From: Bacillota bacterium
GTDB taxonomy: Bacteria; Bacillota; Limnochordia; Limnochordales; DUMU01
Direction: 5' to 3'
Assembly (NCBI GenBank): GCA_012839805.1
Contig: DUMU01000017.1
Coordinates: forward strand, 1 to 46,160
DNA: 46,160 bases
Shown here: piece by piece, positions 25,416 to 35,709 of the stretch
How the letters are laid out: each line of letters starts with the position of its first letter
Position numbering within the stretch: position 1 is the first letter of the stretch
Translations under genes and position numbers: made by a program
The notes under the pieces: generated by a model
What the model saw: the letters and a program-made list of their open reading frames with translations, nothing else
The model's database searches: none
Told to the model about the DNA's origin: nothing

Positions 25416-26633
25416 CTACCCTCGTTCCGAAGGTATTTCCCGTCTTGCTTCGTACAGGGTGTAACTCCAAAGCCATTGTTCGCCGGTTACCGCGGTGGTG
25501 AAGACGATGTCGAGGATGTCGCCCTTCCCGGGAGACGTCCCCGGCGGGGAAGGCAGGGTACCGGTGGGAGTGCGGACCAGGGCGGCGTTGTGGTTGCGGG
25601 GGAAGCCGCTGTCGGCCGGGCCGATGGTCCCCACCAGCTGCCAGTGCCCGTATCCGCTGCGGATGGCCTCACCGCCTATACTCGCCAGCTGCAGCACCGA
25701 ACTCACGAAGCCGGGCAGTTCGGGATCGAAAGGGTGTCGCGGAGCAATCAGGAAAAAGCGATCATGGCCGGTATCGTAGACCAGGTCGCCATTATGGAGG
25801 ATGGCTCGTGAACCGTCTCCGGTTGTCAAGCCTGCCTCGGGCAGCCGGAGGCCAAAACCTATGATGGGGGCGGATAGGCCGGAGAAGTCGAGCTGGCGGC
25901 GAACCATGTAGGTGCCGGAACGATCGCCGCGGGTATAGAATAGCCAGAGCCTCCCTTTCCCGTCGATACTTACCACGCTGGGCTGGCCGACACCCCAGAC
26001 ATCCGTGCCGGTCGCGGCCACGATAGGATTGCCGGCGTATCTGACCCAAGGGCCTCCCCATTCCCTGGCCAACGCTACCCCTATCTGGTTATGATTGTTG
26101 TCCCACTGATCAGTACCGGTGTAGAAGAGCGCGTACCGGTACTCCTCGCCTGCATACCGGAAGCTTCCGGCTACCACGGCGGGATCGCAGACGTGAACGC
26201 TATCCCACTCTCCCGGCCTCCCGGGTTCGAGGACCGGACGAGGCGGAGCCCAGCCGGTGGACGAGACCAGGACAGCGCTGCTACCCGTGCTGCCAGGGTT
26301 TCCCGCGCCGCCGTTCTCGCAGAAGCTATAGTAAATGTGGTCGCGAACCACATACGGTTCGCGGTTCTGACACCACCACGCATGAACGACGTTCCCATCC
26401 ACTATGACCGTGGGTGCGTAGTTGTAAAAGCCGTCGTGTTCCTTAGGCAAGAAAACCCTGGCCGTTGTGCCAACCCGCATCTTACCATCCTCCCGGACGG
26501 CCGGCCGATCCAGGCCCTCTCCGGTCTGGGCTACGGCCATCACCGCCAGGAGAGCTGTAGCGAGCCCCCCGGCGAGACCCGCGGCCAGACGGGCTGCGAA
26601 ACTCGTCGCCGGCAACCCCAGCCGTACCCTCAC
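25416..26633 (-). CDS. Secreted five-bladed beta-propeller glycosidase-like protein (GH43/GH32/GH130-like)
   Basis: A 405-residue protein with a signal peptide (LAAGLAGGLATALLAVMAVA, cleavage near AQT). The body shows repeated propeller blades typical of clan GH-F/J proteins: GFYNYAPTVIVDGNVVHAWW, DHIYYSFCENG, WDSVHVCDPAVVAGSFRYAG, YALFYTGTDQWDNNHNQIG, GQPSVVSIDGKGRLWLFYTR and LHNGDLVYDTGHDRFFLIAP. The DPAVV motif with an FYTG blade is like GH43/GH32 active-site blades, but I cannot assign the family or confirm the catalytic acids. Its GTG start overlaps the stop of the nucleoside hydrolase-like gene by four bases, so they are translationally coupled. Confidence 0.82.
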   Translation of the reverse strand: MRVRLGLPATSFAARLAAGLAGGLATALLAVMAVAQTGEGLDRPAVREDGKMRVGTTARVFLPKEHDGFYNYAPTVIVDGNVVHAWWCQNREPYVVRDHIYYSFCENGGAGNPGSTGSSAVLVSSTGWAPPRPVLEPGRPGEWDSVHVCDPAVVAGSFRYAGEEYRYALFYTGTDQWDNNHNQIGVALAREWGGPWVRYAGNPIVAATGTDVWGVGQPSVVSIDGKGRLWLFYTRGDRSGTYMVRRQLDFSGLSAPIIGFGLRLPEAGLTTGDGSRAILHNGDLVYDTGHDRFFLIAPRHPFDPELPGFVSSVLQLASIGGEAIRSGYGHWQLVGTIGPADSGFPRNHNAALVRTPTGTLPSPPGTSPGKGDILDIVFTTAVTGEQWLWSYTLYEARREIPSERG

Positions 26634-27769
26634 CGGCTGCCCTCCTCCTGGTCTGCTTCCCGGCCCGCAAACTTTTCCAGCTTCTCCACCAGGTCCAGCA
26701 AGATCGGGTCCCGGTAGGCGTCGACGGCCACCCGGTAAGGAGGCCGCGCCAGATCAGAAAGGTCCCAGCTCCGGTCGGCTCGCAGCCGGGGCGTGGGACG
26801 GACTTCGGTCGGCACCCAGGCGGGGTTGTTGAGCCAGGCTACGGGCACGATGTCCCAGATGACCTTGGAACGAACCCGGCCGGGGATAAAGTCGCAAAAG
26901 ATCCGGGCCAGGTAAGCACCCAACTCCCCGCAGGGCTCCACGTACTTGCGTATCTCCGCAGGCACGGAACGCACATGCTCGGCCACATTCTTACAGGGGA
27001 AACGGACCAGAGGTACTCCTATATCCAGCACGACCTGGGAGGCAGCCACGTCTCCGCTGAGGTTGAACTCGTCGGTGTGGGGCCAGTATTCGGGTTGGCC
27101 ACCCAGCCATAGTACGGTGATGTCCCGGGCGATCTCAGGTCGGAGCAACAGGGCCGAGGCGACGTTGGTGAGCGCGCCGATGGCGACGACGTACAGGCGC
27201 GCGCCCCGAGCCCGGCAGGCCGCTGCCCGCTCGATCAGGTCCAAGGCGGCGGCACTCTCGCAGGGTCGCCCGGTCTCGGTGAGGAAGGCCGTTGAACCGC
27301 GCCACACGGGCGGAGGCTCAATATCCGGCATTTTCGACAGCACGTTCTGGATTTCCACGTAACTTGCTTCCATGCCGGCCGCGGCCGAAGGGTACTCCGG
27401 TTTTGCGAAGGGGGCAGCATAGATTGCTTCACACTGCAAGGCGGGGGAGAGCAGCGTATAGGCAATGGCAAATTGATCATCGATTTCGTTCTTAGCGTCG
27501 GTGTCAAGAACTACGGGCACGGGCGCAGTGCGAGTACCGGCCCGTGGATGCTCCAGTGCCGCCTTTCTCTGGGTCTCCGTCATCTCCACCGGTAACAAGT
27601 CTGGAAACAAGCCCTTCACCTCTTTTTCGGTGTTGGTTCGGTTTTTGGAAAGCGGGCGGTCCGGCGCCCGGGAGGCAGCCGGCCGGCCGGGGAAGCTAGC
27701 GGCCGGCTGGGCCGGCGTCTGCAGACGGCGGCCCAGCCTGGTGCCGTGTAGGGGTAATCCTCGCGCCAC
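26630..27769 (-). CDS. Nucleoside hydrolase-like protein (extended metal loop)
   Basis: The core is an inosine-uridine nucleoside hydrolase fold: VPVVLDTDAKNEIDDQFAIA holds the calcium-binding Asp cluster, followed by VVAIGALTNVASALLLRPEI, ITVLWLGGQPE, EFNLSGDVAASQVVLDIGVP (substrate-binding N and D) and VIWDIVPVAWLNNP. The metal loop is DTDAKNEIDD, two residues longer than the common DTDPGxDD. The enzyme would cleave an N-glycosidic bond in a nucleoside-like compound. The frame opens at GTG 27769, directly beside the solute-binding protein stop, but about 60 residues before the domain look unfolded. TTG 27610 (GAGGTG six bases upstream) and ATG 27583 are better start candidates. It is coupled to the propeller protein gene downstream. 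Confidence 0.85.
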   Translation of the reverse strand: MARGLPLHGTRLGRRLQTPAQPAASFPGRPAASRAPDRPLSKNRTNTEKEVKGLFPDLLPVEMTETQRKAALEHPRAGTRTAPVPVVLDTDAKNEIDDQFAIAYTLLSPALQCEAIYAAPFAKPEYPSAAAGMEASYVEIQNVLSKMPDIEPPPVWRGSTAFLTETGRPCESAAALDLIERAAACRARGARLYVVAIGALTNVASALLLRPEIARDITVLWLGGQPEYWPHTDEFNLSGDVAASQVVLDIGVPLVRFPCKNVAEHVRSVPAEIRKYVEPCGELGAYLARIFCDFIPGRVRSKVIWDIVPVAWLNNPAWVPTEVRPTPRLRADRSWDLSDLARPPYRVAVDAYRDPILLDLVEKLEKFAGREADQEEGSR

Positions 27770-27770
27770 A

Positions 27771-29090
27771 TTACTTGGTTTGACGCAGGAGGTTGTTCAC
27801 CTGTACGTTGGCTTCATTGAGTGCGTCCTGAACGTTCTTCTCCCCGGTGAGGATCTGCCACACCTGCCCGTTGATGATCCGGTACATCTCGGAGAAATTG
27901 GGAGTTTGCGGGGCGGGCTGAGCATAGGCCAGGGAGTCGAGGAACGCCCGGAGGTTTTCCGGGTTACCGGCCTTCTGCTTTTGCGTGAGCACCTCCGCAG
28001 CCACGGCCGCCCGTGATGGGATGTCAAGCCCCGCCCGCTGGGCGTCCGCGCTGACGAGCTCCTTGACGAGTTCCCAGGCCAGTTCCGGATACTTCGTCTT
28101 GCTGGAGATGCCGTAACCCGATGAGTAGATCAGGGTGCTTGCCCGCTTCTGCTGGGGCAGTTCGGCAAATCCCCATCTGAACTTGGCGTCCTTGTAGATG
28201 CCAACGGTCCAGTACCCCAGTTGAACCATCCCAACCACTTGGTCGAGGAAAAGACCATCCCACCAGCCATGGGCTCCGGCCTCTTCGAAGGAAGGCGAGA
28301 CGTGCCACTGGTTCTTGAGTTTAGCCAGAAACTGGAATGTTTCCTGATTCTGGGGTGAGTCCAGGACTGCTTGGGTTCCTGCAGCATTAAGTATGTCGCC
28401 GCCGTTTTGGCGCACAAACGGAGTCCAGAACCCGTCCCATTCGTTCACGAAAACACCGTATTGGGAAAACTTGCCCGGCCCCAGGGGCTTTTGGGTGAGC
28501 TTCTGGGCAGTAGCAGCAAAATCATCCCAGGTCCAGCCTTTTTTCGGAGTAGCCAGTGCCGCTGCTTCGAATAGGTCACGATTATAGAGCATCACCAGTG
28601 TGGTAAAACCAGGAGGCAACGCGTAAAGTTTTCCGTCGTAACGGTAAACGTTGACTACCTCACCAAAGAACTCGTTCAACGGGTACTTCTCTTTGTTGAT
28701 GAACTGCGTCAGATCCAGTAGTAATCCTTGCCGTACCATTACCTGCAGGGACATGTCACGAACTACCATGACGTCCGGGGGACTCCCGGCCGCGGTCTGC
28801 ACAAAGAGTTCCTGTTCGTAATCACGGCTGGGAGTCATGTCCAGTATGATCTCTACTTCCGGGTGACGCGCATGGAAACGCTGCAAGACCTGGTCGTAGA
28901 ATGCGTTCTTTGTTGCCCCTTCGGCCGCTTCACCCCAGAAGGCCAGGCGCAGCTTGACCGGGGCGGGAGCGGCACAGACACCGGTGCCCGGCACGCCCGG
29001 TACACTCAACACGGTCACTAAGCTCAGGAAAGACGCGGCCAAGACCACCACTGACGCTCTTACAGGACCTTGAGCCCGTTGCCACCGCAT
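27771..29090 (-). CDS. ABC transporter family 1 extracellular solute-binding protein (second copy)
   Basis: A 439-residue SBP_bac_1 protein: LRLAFWGEAAEGATKNAF, VLQRFHARHPEVEIILDMTP, TAAGSPPDVMVVRDMSLQ, GLLLDLTQFI, LYALPPGFTTLVMLYNRDLF and YSSGYGISSKTKYPELAWEL. The signal peptide (SVVVLAASFLSLVTVLSV) ends in GVCAAPAPV; the Cys is not in a lipobox, so the protein is probably soluble in the periplasm. GGAGGAGG precedes the ATG by eight bases. It is the first gene of a minus-strand operon with the nucleoside hydrolase-like and propeller genes, and lies divergent from the hydrolase/AraC fusion. No ABC permease or ATPase for it is present in the window. Confidence 0.92.
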   Translation of the reverse strand: MRWQRAQGPVRASVVVLAASFLSLVTVLSVPGVPGTGVCAAPAPVKLRLAFWGEAAEGATKNAFYDQVLQRFHARHPEVEIILDMTPSRDYEQELFVQTAAGSPPDVMVVRDMSLQVMVRQGLLLDLTQFINKEKYPLNEFFGEVVNVYRYDGKLYALPPGFTTLVMLYNRDLFEAAALATPKKGWTWDDFAATAQKLTQKPLGPGKFSQYGVFVNEWDGFWTPFVRQNGGDILNAAGTQAVLDSPQNQETFQFLAKLKNQWHVSPSFEEAGAHGWWDGLFLDQVVGMVQLGYWTVGIYKDAKFRWGFAELPQQKRASTLIYSSGYGISSKTKYPELAWELVKELVSADAQRAGLDIPSRAAVAAEVLTQKQKAGNPENLRAFLDSLAYAQPAPQTPNFSEMYRIINGQVWQILTGEKNVQDALNEANVQVNNLLRQTK

Positions 29091-29385
29091 TTCCCGTTAC
29101 CTCCTCCGTACTTTGGCGTTTCCCTGATTTGTGAGGGCTCCTGCGGCAGATATACGGGCATGGTGTGCCAGCTCCTTTGCCCTACGTTGTCACACATTTA
29201 ACCAGTGTTGCGCAGATGCACTTTCCCGATGGTCCGTTCCGACCGGCTAGAGAGGCGGCAGTCGATCGTAATCAGCAGAGACGATGTAGCCAGGCTGCTC
29301 TATGGCTCAAGCATGCACGGGAGAAGGAAGAGGGGCGAGGGCGGCGAAGAGCTCCCCGCCGGGTAGAGAGAAGGAAGGGGCGGGC
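29091..29385. promoter_or_regulatory. Divergent control region between the binding-protein operon and the AraC fusion gene
   Basis: A 295-base gene-free region serving both strands. I see the ribosome sites at both ends but no convincing -35/-10 pair and no clear direct repeat of the kind AraC proteins bind. As the only shared upstream region, it is the likely target of the fusion regulator. Confidence 0.4.
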
Positions 29386-31194
29386 GTGAAAGTTATCCTG
29401 GATTGCCACATCGGTCCAAACATAGACGACGCCTTTGCTTTGGCTCTAGCTTTGGCCGCTCCGGAGATCGAGCTGGTAGGAGTGACCACGGAAGACGACG
29501 CCGGTGGTACGCGGGCGCGGACGGCGGCGGCGCTGGCTCGTGCCTATGGCCGTGCGGACGTTCCCATCATAGCAGGAGTCAACGGCCCGCTCACGCGGTC
29601 CGCTCCGCGCGAGTGCCCGGCGGTTCGTTTCCTCGTGGAGCAGGCGAAGTGCCACCCGGGTGACATCGTGGTGGTGACCACGGGACCGGCCACCAACCTG
29701 GCCCTGGCGTTGCGGGAGACTTTTCCCGGTTCTTCCGGCGTCCGGCGTTTCCGAGCGGTGGTCGCCATGGCCGGTTGGATGGGCCAGCGGCTCCCGGAGT
29801 GGAACGTTCAGTATGACCCCGTGGCCATGGACACGCTCCTTCAGTCAGATGAAGACCTCTGGCTGTTCGGCCTCGACGTAACGCTGGCTTGCCGCCTCAA
29901 CGAGATGGACTTGGCGCTGCTGGAGGAAGCCAAGAGCACCGGCACCCAGTTGCTGCTGCAACTTCTGCGCGAATGGCAGGCGGGCCGGCCGGACGCCCCC
30001 ATCCTCCATGATCCTCTTCCCGTTGCGTATCTCTGTGATCCGCAACTCGCCACCATGGAATCCGCCCGGGTGGCCATGACCGAAACGCCTGCGACCGTAC
30101 CGGACAGCGGACTCGGCGGGCGTAGCGAGCGGGTACTGGCGTTTGATGCGAGCGGGGGACGGCCGGTTAAGGTCTGTCGCCATGTAGACGTCAAGCGTTA
30201 CTTTGCAGTGATGATTCAGCGCCTGCTGTTTCCCCGGGTATCTCCTCTCTCCGGCAGGCAGATGGACCAGACCGTCTCCGGTGTGACCGGCCTGGGCCGG
30301 TCGCTGCGCAGCCTTCCCACGCCTGAACTTTACAATGCTTTGGAGTTGAGCTACCGGCCCGGATGGGATTCAGGATGGCAAAGCCGTGCCGAGCACCAGG
30401 TCATACTGATCGAAGAGGGAACGATCACCGTTGAGATCGCCAACCATTCCGAGCCGGCGTACGGCCAGCCTCAAGACGCGCTCTTCGTGCCCCGTGATAC
30501 GAGCTACCGCCTTTCGACCCGTACCGGTGCCCGTCTGATAGAAGTGTTCTTCTATATGAACGAAGAGAATGACCTCATTACCTCGCGTTTGCGGCGGGCC
30601 GGGGTGCTGGTACACGCGCGACAACAGGGGGCTTTGCCCACGGTGATGCGGGGATTGGTACAGGCCCACACCACGCAGACTTTCCACAGCCTCTTGACGT
30701 CGCAAGGATTGCTCTACCAGCTGCTCGCTCTCCTTTCGCAGGCGGCCAACCAGTCCCACTGGGCCGACGGTAATCCGGAACGTGACGCTTGCCTGGAACG
30801 GGCACGTTTCTTCGTCGAAGAACATATAACCCGTAACCTGTCCTTGGCGGAGGTAGCCCGGGTGGCCAACATGAGCAAGTACCACTTCAACCGGCTGTTT
30901 CGCCGGCGATACGGGGTCACCCCCTTGGGCTACCATACCCATTTACGCATGCAGCGGGCCGAGGCCTTGCTGGAGCTGGGGAAGCTGCCCGTCTGCGAGG
31001 TGGCCGAGCAGCTGGGATACGCATCGGTTTACTCTTTCAGCCGCAGCTTCAAACGATACTTCGGGCGAAGCCCGACGGCACCCCGCCGGCGCTCTGCCGG
31101 GACGGCGCCGGCCCGCGGACCCGGAGGGGGATGGTCTTCACCGGGCGATGCCCGGGACAACCGGAAACTGCCTGGCCCGGCCGGCGATGGATAG
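29386..31194 (+). CDS. Nucleoside hydrolase-like / cupin / AraC fusion regulator
   Basis: A 602-residue protein starting at GTG 29386, with AAGGAAGGGG five bases upstream. Residues 1 to about 285 are a nucleoside hydrolase fold: VILDCHIGPNIDDAFALAL, PIIAGVNGPLT, VVVTTGPATNLALALRETF, WNVQYDPVAMDTLLQ and ILHDPLPVAYLCDP. In the metal loop the second Asp is replaced (DCH instead of DTD), while the DD pair and the later HD are kept. About 315-392 is a cupin sensor domain (LELSYRPGWDSGW, HQVILIEEGTITVEIA). About 470-569 is an AraC/XylS DNA-binding domain with two helix-turn-helices (LAEVARVANMSKYHFNRLFR; VCEVAEQLGYASVYSFSRSF). It probably senses a nucleoside or glycoside and controls the divergent operon, which itself encodes a nucleoside hydrolase-like enzyme. 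Whether it still cleaves its ligand is unknown. Confidence 0.85.
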   Translation: MKVILDCHIGPNIDDAFALALALAAPEIELVGVTTEDDAGGTRARTAAALARAYGRADVPIIAGVNGPLTRSAPRECPAVRFLVEQAKCHPGDIVVVTTGPATNLALALRETFPGSSGVRRFRAVVAMAGWMGQRLPEWNVQYDPVAMDTLLQSDEDLWLFGLDVTLACRLNEMDLALLEEAKSTGTQLLLQLLREWQAGRPDAPILHDPLPVAYLCDPQLATMESARVAMTETPATVPDSGLGGRSERVLAFDASGGRPVKVCRHVDVKRYFAVMIQRLLFPRVSPLSGRQMDQTVSGVTGLGRSLRSLPTPELYNALELSYRPGWDSGWQSRAEHQVILIEEGTITVEIANHSEPAYGQPQDALFVPRDTSYRLSTRTGARLIEVFFYMNEENDLITSRLRRAGVLVHARQQGALPTVMRGLVQAHTTQTFHSLLTSQGLLYQLLALLSQAANQSHWADGNPERDACLERARFFVEEHITRNLSLAEVARVANMSKYHFNRLFRRRYGVTPLGYHTHLRMQRAEALLELGKLPVCEVAEQLGYASVYSFSRSFKRYFGRSPTAPRRRSAGTAPARGPGGGWSSPGDARDNRKLPGPAGDG

Positions 31195-32287: not shown

Positions 32288-33697
32288 TCAGAACTTGACG
32301 CGGAAGCGCCCGAGGATTTGTTGGGCCTTGCTGGCATCGAAATTACTGTCCCCGTATTCCAGCTCCAACGCGGCCTCCGAGTTAACCCACGCCGGCACGG
32401 TATAGGTAACCTTGCCGTAGACGGCAGGCGCGCCTTCCAGCTTGTCCTTGAACTGAGCCTTCCCTTCTATCTTCACCCGGTCGTTCAGACGGTAGGCAAA
32501 CTGCGGCACGAGCGTCCAGGCGGTGGTCGGCTTGGCTGCGCCGGCCACGATCGTGCTCGACCGGTCGGCGGTAAGCTTGGCCACCTCGAAGGCGGCGAAG
32601 GGCAGGTTCAGTTCGGCGTGTACGGTGGTCGTCGTCTTCTGTTCGCCGCCGGATTCCCCGGGTTCCACCCTTTCCTGGGTGAGCGCCAGAGCAGGAGACA
32701 TGAGGTCAGCCCGATTGATCTCGATCCCGGCTTCATAGGTGCGAGTAGTCGTGTCCTCGGTGACGAAGGTCTGCACGGCCAGGTTACCGTTGACCTGGTC
32801 GGCCAGCGGATACCCCACCGCCACGCGCGTCAGCCTGCCACCGGTTAGCACGGCCGGGTCACCCAGCGCATTATCGAAGACGGTTTTGATCTCCTTCGGG
32901 AAGGAACGATAGGTTGCCTGGACCTGGGCCTTTCCAATGGGCTGCGTGGCGTTCAGGTAATACCCGCGGACGGACTTGGTGCCCGCCCGGAAAGTGGCCA
33001 TTTCGCCCACCACCGAGAGCTCACCAAGGGTAAAGGCGGCATCGATCGCCAGGCCCGCGCGGCCACCGGTGCCTGCCCGGAAGTCCTTTAAGTTGCTCCA
33101 CACCTGCGAACTGTACGTCGCTCCTATCTTAAGCGGGCTGGTGGGGATAGGAAAAACGGTCTCGACGCGCCCGTTGAAGGCCCACTGCCCGCCCCAGGGG
33201 TGGAGTTTGACTACCGAACCAGACAGCTTCCATCCGGCATGGGTGTACTGAACCTCAGTTCCGGTGAAATTGGTCTCCGAGCTGCCCCAGCGGTTGGGAT
33301 GGAATATGTGCAACGGGTCATCGGTGGGATTCGGGCGTTCCCGTGAGAAGACCCGCACGTCGAAATTCTCGGTATCGAGGGTCGCATGGAACTGCTCTAT
33401 GTTTGTGCCGCTGGTCCCTGCGTGCTCATAGAAACTGAATGTCCGCCAGTAGAGTTCAACGCCGCGAGCCGGTCTCACTCGCATCTCAAGCGACAGGTCA
33501 TTGTGGAGGTTCTCAAGATTCCCGCTTTTCCAGTCCAGCTTCTGCCAGGCGGAGTAGTCCCCGTGGAACTCTATCCCCGCCGCCAAGGTGCTTTTGCCAG
33601 TGCCGAAGACGACCAGGAAAGCCAGGGACAACCCGACGCCGAGAACCGAGAAACCCAGCCGGTAATGTGATCGCCGCCAGTACCGCCACGACTTCAT
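32288..33697 (-). CDS. Secreted beta-strand-rich protein, probable outer membrane beta-barrel
   Basis: A 469-residue protein. ATG 33697 is chosen because GGGGAGGAG lies eight bases upstream, and it starts a signal peptide (LGFSVLGVGLSLAFLVVF, cleavage near TLAAG). The mature part is one long series of amphipathic strands separated by short turns: NDLSLEMRVRPARGVELYWR, WKLSGSVVKLHPWG, GLAIDAAFTLGELSVVGEMA, GKAQVQATYRSF, AWTLVPQFAYRLNDRVKIEG and ALELEYGDSN. It ends ILGRFRVKF, with the terminal Phe preferred by outer-membrane assembly machinery. No membrane helix or Cys is seen. These signs fit an outer-membrane porin-like barrel; specificity is unknown. It follows the GH27 gene on the same strand, separated from it by a terminator. 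Confidence 0.7.
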   Translation of the reverse strand: MKSWRYWRRSHYRLGFSVLGVGLSLAFLVVFGTGKSTLAAGIEFHGDYSAWQKLDWKSGNLENLHNDLSLEMRVRPARGVELYWRTFSFYEHAGTSGTNIEQFHATLDTENFDVRVFSRERPNPTDDPLHIFHPNRWGSSETNFTGTEVQYTHAGWKLSGSVVKLHPWGGQWAFNGRVETVFPIPTSPLKIGATYSSQVWSNLKDFRAGTGGRAGLAIDAAFTLGELSVVGEMATFRAGTKSVRGYYLNATQPIGKAQVQATYRSFPKEIKTVFDNALGDPAVLTGGRLTRVAVGYPLADQVNGNLAVQTFVTEDTTTRTYEAGIEINRADLMSPALALTQERVEPGESGGEQKTTTTVHAELNLPFAAFEVAKLTADRSSTIVAGAAKPTTAWTLVPQFAYRLNDRVKIEGKAQFKDKLEGAPAVYGKVTYTVPAWVNSEAALELEYGDSNFDASKAQQILGRFRVKF

Positions 33698-33734
33698 CCA
33701 TGACTCCTCCCCAACGGAGTAACGTTTGAACGGG

Positions 33735-33767
33735 CCGCCTGAAACCGCGGGGCGGTTTTCAGGGCGG
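33735..33767 (-). promoter_or_regulatory. Leader stem-loop before the beta-barrel-like gene
   Basis: In the 5' leader, about 38-70 bases before ATG 33697, complementary arms (33735-33747 with 33753-33767) can form a 13-bp stem with two one-base bulges and a 5-base loop. It is too close to the gene to end an upstream transcript usefully and may affect RNA stability or translation. Confidence 0.4.
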
Positions 33768-33976
33768 ACCACATCGGTGAGGAAGGTTCGGCAAGGAGGA
33801 GGGATTTCCTGCTGGTATTGAATCCACTTGCGTAGATTGCCCGGAAATAATGAATTCCCTCCGAAGGATACGGGACGAACGCGCAGCTTGCCTCCTTGGC
33901 TGAAGGACCTTCGCAATTTGGCCGGATCAAGCTGGCTTGTCTTCAATCCGTCCCGGTGCTCTGCCCGCGACAAAGA

Positions 33977-34068: not shown

Positions 34069-35598
34069 TCAGCCGCGCTTCATGAGGCGGAAGACCGCTA
34101 CGCCATGGGGCGGTACGACTGCCGAGACGCGGCCGTCGATTGGGCTCTCTCGATGCTCCCAGAGGTCACGAGCGACGTAAACGCCCCGGCCTGTTTTCCC
34201 GGCCGCGCCTGGTACCGCAGCCGCCAGCGGCCTGAGCGACTCCTCCAGCTCCTCGATGGTAACCCAGATCTCGGCGGGCGTCTCGGTACGGTTGAAGAGG
34301 ACCACGGCCCGGTCGCCGCCGGAAAGCGGCTTGGCCCACACCTCCAGGCCATTCTCGGCTCGAATCCGCTTCCCCTGCACGCCCAGGGGATCCTGATTGA
34401 TCGCAATCACCTCACGGTTGGTAAGTATGGCCCGGATCTCGTCGCTCATGTTGCGTAGATCGTTACCGGCCATGAGCGGTGCGTTCAGGATGCACCAGAG
34501 GCTGAAATGGGAAATGTATTCGGTTAGCGTCATGCCTCCGTTACCCACTTCCAGCATGTCCGGGTCGTTCCAGTGCCCGGGCCCGCTATACACCTCGAGC
34601 CCTACCTGGCGGTCCAGAATATCGAGCACGCTTGCCCAGCTGTCGGTGATATCGCCCGTGGTCCGCCAGAGATGCCCCACCTCCGGCCCCCACTCCCAGG
34701 GTGAATGAGTGCCCCATTCGCAAATACTGAAGACGATGGGCCGGCCTGTAGCCCGCAAGGCATCGCTCATCCGCTTGTAATTCTGAACCGTGATCTCCCG
34801 AGTCGTATACGGGTTGTAGAAGCGAACGGTGTTCTTGCCAGCCTGCAGTTCAACCGGAACGGTCAAAGTGTGAACTGCATCCCGCTGGTTCTCCGGGTTG
34901 AGCAGACGAAGCCTTGTCCCTTCGCCTTCATTAATGCTCACATAAACCGCTTGGGGATTGTTCCAGCGCTCGCGGTGAACGTAAGTCACGACCAGATCGT
35001 ACGTCCCGGCTTTGGGCACGTTTACGTTGGTAAAGAGCAAGCTTCCCTTGCCTTCCCCGATTCCGTTCACGAAGCGATTGCCGGAGCAATTGGAGCAGTA
35101 AGCAATGTTCGCTTCGCCCTCCAATACGTTTTCTGGCGCTTCAGCCTCGTAATCCACCCCGGCCACGGTTATCTTGTCAATCTGGCTGGTAGCCACCTCC
35201 GAATAGCAGAAGTCATACTTGAGGTAGTCTACCTGCCATTCGGCGAACTGGCGGGCGTCTTGCTCTTCATGGCCAAGGCTCGCCGGCAGCCCCTGGCATG
35301 TCAACGTACCGTTCGAGGAGTAAATCCCAAACTTTAACCCTTTGCTGTGAACATAGTCCGCGAGCGCCCTGATCCCGCTGGGGAAGGTCGCGGGATTGGC
35401 CTGCAGGTTACCGTCGGCGTCTCGTTCGGGAGCCATCCAGCAGTCGTCGATCACGAGATACTCATATCCGGCATCCTTCATGCCGGAACTGACCATTGCG
35501 TCGGCCATCTCCCGGATGATCTTCTCGTCGATCCGGCAACCAAACTTGTTCCAGCTGTTCCAGCCCATGGGCGGAGTTCTCGCCAATCCGTCGTCCAA
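34069..35598 (-). CDS. GH27 alpha-galactosidase with inserted carbohydrate-binding domain
   Basis: A 509-residue glycoside hydrolase. It opens with the GH27 signature LARTPPMGWNSWNKFGC and continues with YEYLVIDDCWM and KGLKFGIYSSNGTLTC. The catalytic nucleophile is the Asp of VDYLKYDFC (about residue 129) and the acid/base the Asp of WRTTGDITDSW (about 316), so both are present. Between them a beta-sandwich of about 130 residues (about 144-272; VDYEAEAPENVLEGEANIAY, FVNGIGEGKGSLLFTNVNVP, AGKNTVRFYNPY) resembles a CBM35/CBM6-type module and interrupts the barrel. There is no signal peptide, so the enzyme is probably cytoplasmic and removes alpha-galactosyl units from imported sugars. TTG 35598 is preferred because GGGAGGT precedes it; the frame also opens at TTG 35616. 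The C-terminal beta domain is short and ends VPPHGVAVFRLMKRG. Confidence 0.92.
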   Translation of the reverse strand: MDDGLARTPPMGWNSWNKFGCRIDEKIIREMADAMVSSGMKDAGYEYLVIDDCWMAPERDADGNLQANPATFPSGIRALADYVHSKGLKFGIYSSNGTLTCQGLPASLGHEEQDARQFAEWQVDYLKYDFCYSEVATSQIDKITVAGVDYEAEAPENVLEGEANIAYCSNCSGNRFVNGIGEGKGSLLFTNVNVPKAGTYDLVVTYVHRERWNNPQAVYVSINEGEGTRLRLLNPENQRDAVHTLTVPVELQAGKNTVRFYNPYTTREITVQNYKRMSDALRATGRPIVFSICEWGTHSPWEWGPEVGHLWRTTGDITDSWASVLDILDRQVGLEVYSGPGHWNDPDMLEVGNGGMTLTEYISHFSLWCILNAPLMAGNDLRNMSDEIRAILTNREVIAINQDPLGVQGKRIRAENGLEVWAKPLSGGDRAVVLFNRTETPAEIWVTIEELEESLRPLAAAVPGAAGKTGRGVYVARDLWEHRESPIDGRVSAVVPPHGVAVFRLMKRG

Positions 35599-35709
35599 GG
35601 TTCTGATACCTCCCAAATCTCGACATCGTTGCCGTAGCCCCGGATGCTAACGGCCCTGATTCTAGGGCCGGCCGGCTTCTCCTGCTGCTCGCGGCGCGGC
35701 CCTACCGGC

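Follow-up and report, generated by a model that had tools for sequence, protein, structure and literature searches.

Organization of the locus

The window, a stretch of 46,160 nucleotides of Bacillota DNA, contains a gene for a protein that joins a nucleoside hydrolase (IUNH) fold to a complete AraC-type regulator, together with an operon that diverges from it and a predicted operator between the two (Table 1). The fusion gene is a single unbroken frame that begins at GTG 29386, with the purine-rich sequence GGAAGGGG just 5' of the GTG. An alternative in-frame ATG at 29302 would yield a protein of 630 residues. The alignment of the homologues begins no more than a few residues away from the GTG, consistent with the GTG being the start.

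Table 1 Features of the fusion gene, the intergenic region and the divergent operon (positions in the window).
Feature	Position	Strand	Basis and remarks
Possible glycosidase	25416..26633	-	Third gene of divergent operon; PF04616 (GH43) below cut-off
Nucleoside-hydrolase-like protein	26630..27769	-	Second gene of divergent operon; PF01156, E 6.1e-17
ABC-transporter solute-binding protein (SBP_bac_1)	27771..29090	-	First gene of divergent operon, predicted target; PF01547, E 1.3e-32
Predicted operator CCTTTG-N7-TTG-N18-TTGC, two half-sites repeating at 21 bp	29174..29213	+	Relatives' sites, matrix, shuffles, genome scan
IUNH-cupin-AraC fusion regulator	29386..31194	+	602 aa, GTG start; frame, Pfam, 12 homologous fusions, AlphaFold model
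Nucleoside-hydrolase-fold domain	29392..30204	+	Residues 3-273; PF01156, Foldseek to IUNHs, residue table
AraC-type cupin	30313..30570	+	About residues 310-395; Cupin_6, AraC_binding in homologues, model strands, Rns profile match
Helical linker, probable dimerisation helices	30571..30789	+	Residues 396-468; helices 416-430 and 433-460 in model
AraC DNA-binding domain, two HTH motifs	30790..31092	+	Residues 469-569; HTH_18, HTH_AraC

Domain structure of the fusion protein

The first-pass annotation had proposed a hydrolase-like domain, a cupin and an AraC domain in one frame, and the frame, Pfam, AlphaFold and Foldseek all bear this out. A Pfam search finds the hydrolase fold in the N-terminal part, where it was anticipated (IU_nuc_hydro, PF01156, residues 3-273, E 3.9e-38), and the two AraC HTH matches, HTH_18 (residues 491-569, E 2.6e-21) and HTH_AraC (E 1.8e-20), are above the curated cut-offs. 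The cupin of the window copy is sub-threshold (Cupin_6, E 3e-4). Over the 12 homologues, IU_nuc_hydro is found in all 12, HTH_18 in 11 and AraC_binding in nine; the homologue that lacks HTH_18 is cut by the end of its own contig.

An AlphaFold model made from the 12-sequence alignment (mean pLDDT 77, pTM 0.66) has the IUNH part, a beta domain (residues 314-390), helices and the HTH motifs in the expected order. When the model is used as a Foldseek query, nucleoside hydrolases rank first (best E 8.5e-17, PDB 5tsq; target-normalised TM-score about 0.7). In addition, a profile built on the C-terminal half of the fusion matches full-length Rns, indicating that the part after the hydrolase domain is a complete AraC-type regulator. 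By analogy with AraC/Rns-type regulators, the helices between the cupin and the HTH motifs probably mediate dimerisation. In the AraC/XylS family the HTH is commonly, though not universally, preceded by a cupin and dimerisation helices, and the fusion has a cupin and probable dimerisation helices as well as the double HTH.

Conservation within the fusion is highest in the AraC DNA-binding domain. Of the other two domains, the IUNH one exceeds the cupin both in invariant columns (11% versus 5%) and in identity (45% versus 36%).

Occurrence and origin of the fusion

A search of 73 genomes from the same class with a fusion profile identifies 12 homologous fusions, which come from 10 of these genomes and span five families of the class (f1, f7, f8, f9 and f10). 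One copy is ended by a contig end and the others are full-length matches; three further matches in the class cover the hydrolase half only and are not counted among the 12. The fusion is absent from a genus-mate (G001) and a family-mate (G002). A profile scan of a genome contig collection yields nine fusion loci, all from metagenome-assembled genomes titled Bacillota or Clostridiales; a single-sequence scan of that collection gives no match. Outside the class, no fusion is found among 398 genomes of the phylum (E<=1e-60, with the top few candidates per genome scored), and no full-length fusion in 246 Planctomycetota genomes at E<=1e-40. A set of 72,556 plasmids contains no site covering 80% of the fusion query, and no fusion is found in viral contigs. 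Long IUNH frames in two genomes of the phylum (G068 and G152) turned out to be GC-rich read-through rather than fusions.

The IUNH halves of the fusions group in a single clade (support 99/95), as do the AraC halves when compared with seven unfused AraC proteins (support 95/93). The simplest account of these trees would be a single fusion event, inherited as a unit; the patchy distribution must then involve loss or transfer. The relatives are metagenome-assembled, which is the one point in favour of an artefact of assembly or gene prediction that joined two neighbouring genes. We regard this as having next to no probability, and the census in relatives proposed in the first-pass annotation rules it out: the 12 copies are spread over 10 different genomes, and the trees place each half in a single clade.

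The metal loop and the sugar pocket

Characterised group I nucleoside hydrolases have the fingerprint DxDxxxDD; two Asp residues of the fingerprint and one distal Asp are the calcium ligands, and the ribose O2' and O3' are bound at the calcium site (PMC8910321). In the window protein, the loop reads D6-C7-H8-I-G-P-N-I-D14-D15 (DCHIGPNIDD) and departs from the fingerprint in that the second Asp is absent. It aligns without a gap to the partner loop DTDIGSDIDD and, therefore, H8 stands where the second Asp was, exactly the DCH in place of DTD that had been read from the sequence at first pass. Altogether the hydrolase domain carries D6, H8, D14, D15, E138/N140 and H208/D209.

The same position is altered throughout the family. 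The equivalent of the second Asp (D10) is changed in all 11 fusions that align over the loop, to His in the window, Asn in f9, Glu in G016 and Arg in G445, and it is deleted in three G024 copies. In contrast, it is present in 16 of 16 stand-alone relatives aligned, including E. coli RihA, RihB and RihC. The equivalents of D8, D14, N168 and D242 are invariant in all 27 aligned proteins, fused and stand-alone, and that of E166 is present in 26 of the 27. In window numbering, no change is seen at the first Asp, D14, N140 or D209, and a single copy has Asp instead of E138. From the C. fasciculata enzyme, we take the replaced Asp (D10) to be a calcium ligand and the probable base, and D14, E166, N168 and D242 to be the residues that hold the sugar. 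Sugar-contact residues that are kept while one catalytic ligand is freely swapped would fit a binding domain that needs no turnover.

The first-pass annotation had also pointed to a retained DD pair and a distal HD. Both are present in the window protein (D14-D15 and H208-D209, the latter corresponding to the distal His-Asp pair of catalytic group I enzymes), but the distal His is not a feature of the family: it is Tyr, Leu or Ser in four of 11 homologues, next to an invariant Asp.

The f9 fusions have the loop DTNLADNIDE, with another Asp inside the loop. HopQ1-like proteins, which have the rearranged motif DXXXDXDD, still bind calcium, and phosphodiesterase activity has been reported for XopQ (PMC11685791). 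Loss of D10 is therefore no proof that metal binding, or all activity, is lost. The window loop does not conform to the rearranged motif either.

A conserved direct repeat between the divergent genes

The exact core CCTTTG-N7-TTG-N18-TTG occurs at 29174-29210, between the fusion gene and the divergent operon; the operator is 83 bp upstream of the start of the solute-binding-protein gene and 212 bp from the start of the fusion gene. This core has one match in the window and none in 100 shuffles, and it is unique in the 2.78-Mb genome. A matrix built from the relatives alone, with the window left out, ranks 29174 top in the 46 kb with 20.8 bits, compared with 6.8 bits for the runner-up and with 18.1 bits for the best site over 100 random windows.

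Beside the fusions, the fuller consensus is CCTTTG-N7-TTG-N9-TA.C-N5-TTGC. CCTTTG is exact at nine of the 12 fusion loci, CCTTCC and CCTCTG replace it in two G024 copies, and the G445 copy (locus L070) has no clear operator. At eight loci chosen as non-redundant, identity is 55% within the site versus about 30% in the flanks. The two halves resemble each other at an offset of 21 (identity 0.55, versus 0.18-0.29 at other offsets). The fusion loci carry a conserved direct-repeat site with halves 21 bp apart, which we predict to be the operator of the fusion protein. AraC half-sites are likewise tandem with a spacing of 21 bp.

At four f9 loci, a pair of promoter-like elements (TTGANN-17-TATAGT or GATAAT) that would serve the fusion gene starts one base past the core, which weakly suggests that the fusion gene is autoregulated. 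A pair of this type is absent from the window, and generic promoter scans of both strands of its intergenic region gave no good promoter.

Two further sites match the fuller consensus. One (G022:C217:492-528, equivalent to L082 528-492 on the minus strand) has the sequence CCTTTGATAGAAGTTGCTATCAGTTTAACTGTGATTG and matches the operator in full. It is located upstream of an SBP_bac_5-type ABC transporter operon, and its relative orientation is that of the sites at the fusion loci; the operon is a possible second member of the regulon. The other (G024:C225:6968-7004, L083 3969-4005) resembles the operator and is flanked by genes for a solute-binding protein, in fragmented form, and a BNR-repeat protein.

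The divergent operon

Pfam confirms the earlier description of a divergent operon (29090-25416) with a solute-binding protein and a related IUNH-like enzyme. The IUNH-like protein has an intact Asp loop, DTDAKNEIDD, with D10 kept. The protein is very divergent, having Trp for the distal His and the longest branch of the tree, and its enzymatic activity is uncertain. The GH43 match of the third gene is weak (E 2e-4, 21.2 bits versus a cut-off of 32.2).

In six f9/f7 loci, an intact nucleoside hydrolase diverges from the fusion. In L023 and L024 it is followed by two ABC permeases and a solute-binding protein; L025-L027 and L028 also have the intact hydrolase divergent from the fusion. In L031, as in the window, a solute-binding protein is divergent from the fusion. 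Unlike L023 and L024, the window has no ABC permease gene among the adjacent operon genes examined.

GH127 (beta-L-arabinofuranosidase type) genes are located beside the partner nucleoside hydrolase in L027 (2344-4296) and L026 (517-1434). The L027 copy matches an aceric acid hydrolase model below the cut-off, and L032 has a nearby gene that is GH127-like as judged by sequence. These genes give a hint of the ligand. The ligand may be other than a nucleoside: neighbouring genes point to uptake of a sugar or furanoside, and the sugar gene context suggests a furanoside rather than a salvage nucleoside.

A proposed sensor of the divergent operon

We propose that an AraC-family regulator with a cupin, dimerisation helices and two HTH motifs acquired an extra domain at its N terminus that descends from a nucleoside hydrolase. 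One calcium-ligand Asp is gone and the residues of the furanose pocket are kept, so that a ribose-like or furanoside ligand would most likely be bound without being cleaved efficiently. Binding would cause a conformational change that is relayed to the cupin and the dimer, and the dimer would then occupy the tandem half-sites and control, most likely activate, the operon for the sugar-binding protein, the nucleoside-hydrolase-like enzyme and the possible glycosidase. It perhaps controls the fusion gene as well.

The recurrent fusion in relatives, the loss of the Asp with the sugar contacts kept and the shared operator are what is predicted if the protein is a sensor acting on the divergent operon, and support, on the strength of sequence comparison, the role and target put forward at first pass. 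That the fusion protein regulates the divergent operon is the stronger claim, and we consider it highly probable. The claim of ligand sensing by the hydrolase domain ranks below it, as reasonably probable. Taken together, a crippled hydrolase domain serving as the ligand sensor of an AraC-type regulator of an operon for glycoside uptake and hydrolysis is the explanation that we find likely.

The main rival places the sensor in the cupin. The cupin of AraC binds the inducer, and if the cupin of the fusion does the same, the IUNH domain may be an inert or structural addition that serves oligomerisation or partner binding. The model, Pfam on the homologues and the Rns profile match all detect a cupin, and inactive proteins of the nucleoside hydrolase fold with other roles exist (PMC8910321). 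We nevertheless consider this unlikely: the IUNH domain is the better conserved of the two, and its invariant positions include sugar-contact residues, which an inert domain would be expected to lose. Less probable still is the second rival, a trigger enzyme in which the IUNH domain remains catalytic, with a different substrate or arrangement of the metal site, and links turnover to the control of genes. The D8, D14, N168 and D242 equivalents present in all fusions speak for it, as do proteins of this fold that have non-standard Asp motifs, bind calcium and use other substrates (PMC11685791). However, the second Asp of the fingerprint gives way to His, Asn, Glu, Arg or nothing, with no one substitute conserved, and the leaving-group His is missing in four of 11 fusions.

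If the hydrolase domain is indeed the ligand sensor, a more specific version of the proposal, which we offer only tentatively, is that the nucleoside hydrolase fold without its calcium-ligand Asp is a furanoside receptor, possibly metal-free, coupled through the AraC module to genes for transport and cleavage of the same compound. A sensor and an active enzyme of the same fold would then recognise one ligand with related pockets, and the fusions would represent an undescribed class of sugar sensor.

Comparison with known systems

E. coli AraC and Rns of enterotoxigenic E. coli resemble the fusion in having a cupin, helices and a double HTH, and the 21-bp spacing of the AraC tandem half-sites is that of the predicted operator; the additional N-terminal IUNH domain of 285 residues is found in the fusion alone, and its cupin is weakly conserved. 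E. coli XylR, the regulator of the xylose operon (PDB 4fe4 and 4fe7), also has an AraC DNA-binding domain after a large sugar-binding domain, and it controls sugar uptake and use, similar to the role proposed here. The XylR sensor has a periplasmic-binding-protein (LacI-like) fold, whereas the fusion has a nucleoside hydrolase fold and a cupin, and the sequence match between the two is limited to the C-terminal part, including the HTH. RihA, RihB, RihC and the C. fasciculata IU-NH (PF01156) share the fold and most sugar-contact residues with the fusion, which differs in lacking the second Asp of the calcium loop and in being joined to a regulator. XopQ and HopQ1 reuse the nucleoside hydrolase fold with an altered Asp motif and have no nucleosidase activity (PMC8910321, PMC11685791). 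Unlike the fusion, they are effectors injected by plant pathogens, retain the calcium site and do not regulate transcription.

Each of the domains, AraC control of sugar operons, large added sensor domains (XylR) and inactive nucleoside hydrolase folds (XopQ) are thus known already. In the open literature searched, we found no description of the domain combination, the residue signature or the operator, and the architecture may already have an unstudied entry in UniProt or InterPro. XopQ is the only protein that a review of the fold covers in its section on inactive members (PMC8910321). If the proposal is correct, the fusion clearly exemplifies an enzyme that became a sensor for gene regulation; with its probable active counterpart encoded nearby, the steps from catalysis to signalling are open to testing residue by residue, and the residue pattern and the operator yield direct predictions. 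It would also provide a lead on the ligand of poorly understood hydrolase-like proteins found with sugar transporters, and possibly a furanoside biosensor.

Other neighbouring genes

An RtcB-type RNA ligase gene adjoins the fusion gene in L023 (3854-5074, identified by a Pfam match) and L024 (10388-11608, by sequence likeness). In the window, a minus-strand gene at 32288-33973 encodes a protein of 561 residues with a weak match to Porin_4 (Gram-negative porin; E 3e-4, below the cut-off), a possible hint of an outer membrane. Another minus-strand gene, at 34069-35616, encodes an alpha-galactosidase in which two stretches match Melibiase_2; the segment that separates them appears to be a CBM35-like insertion.
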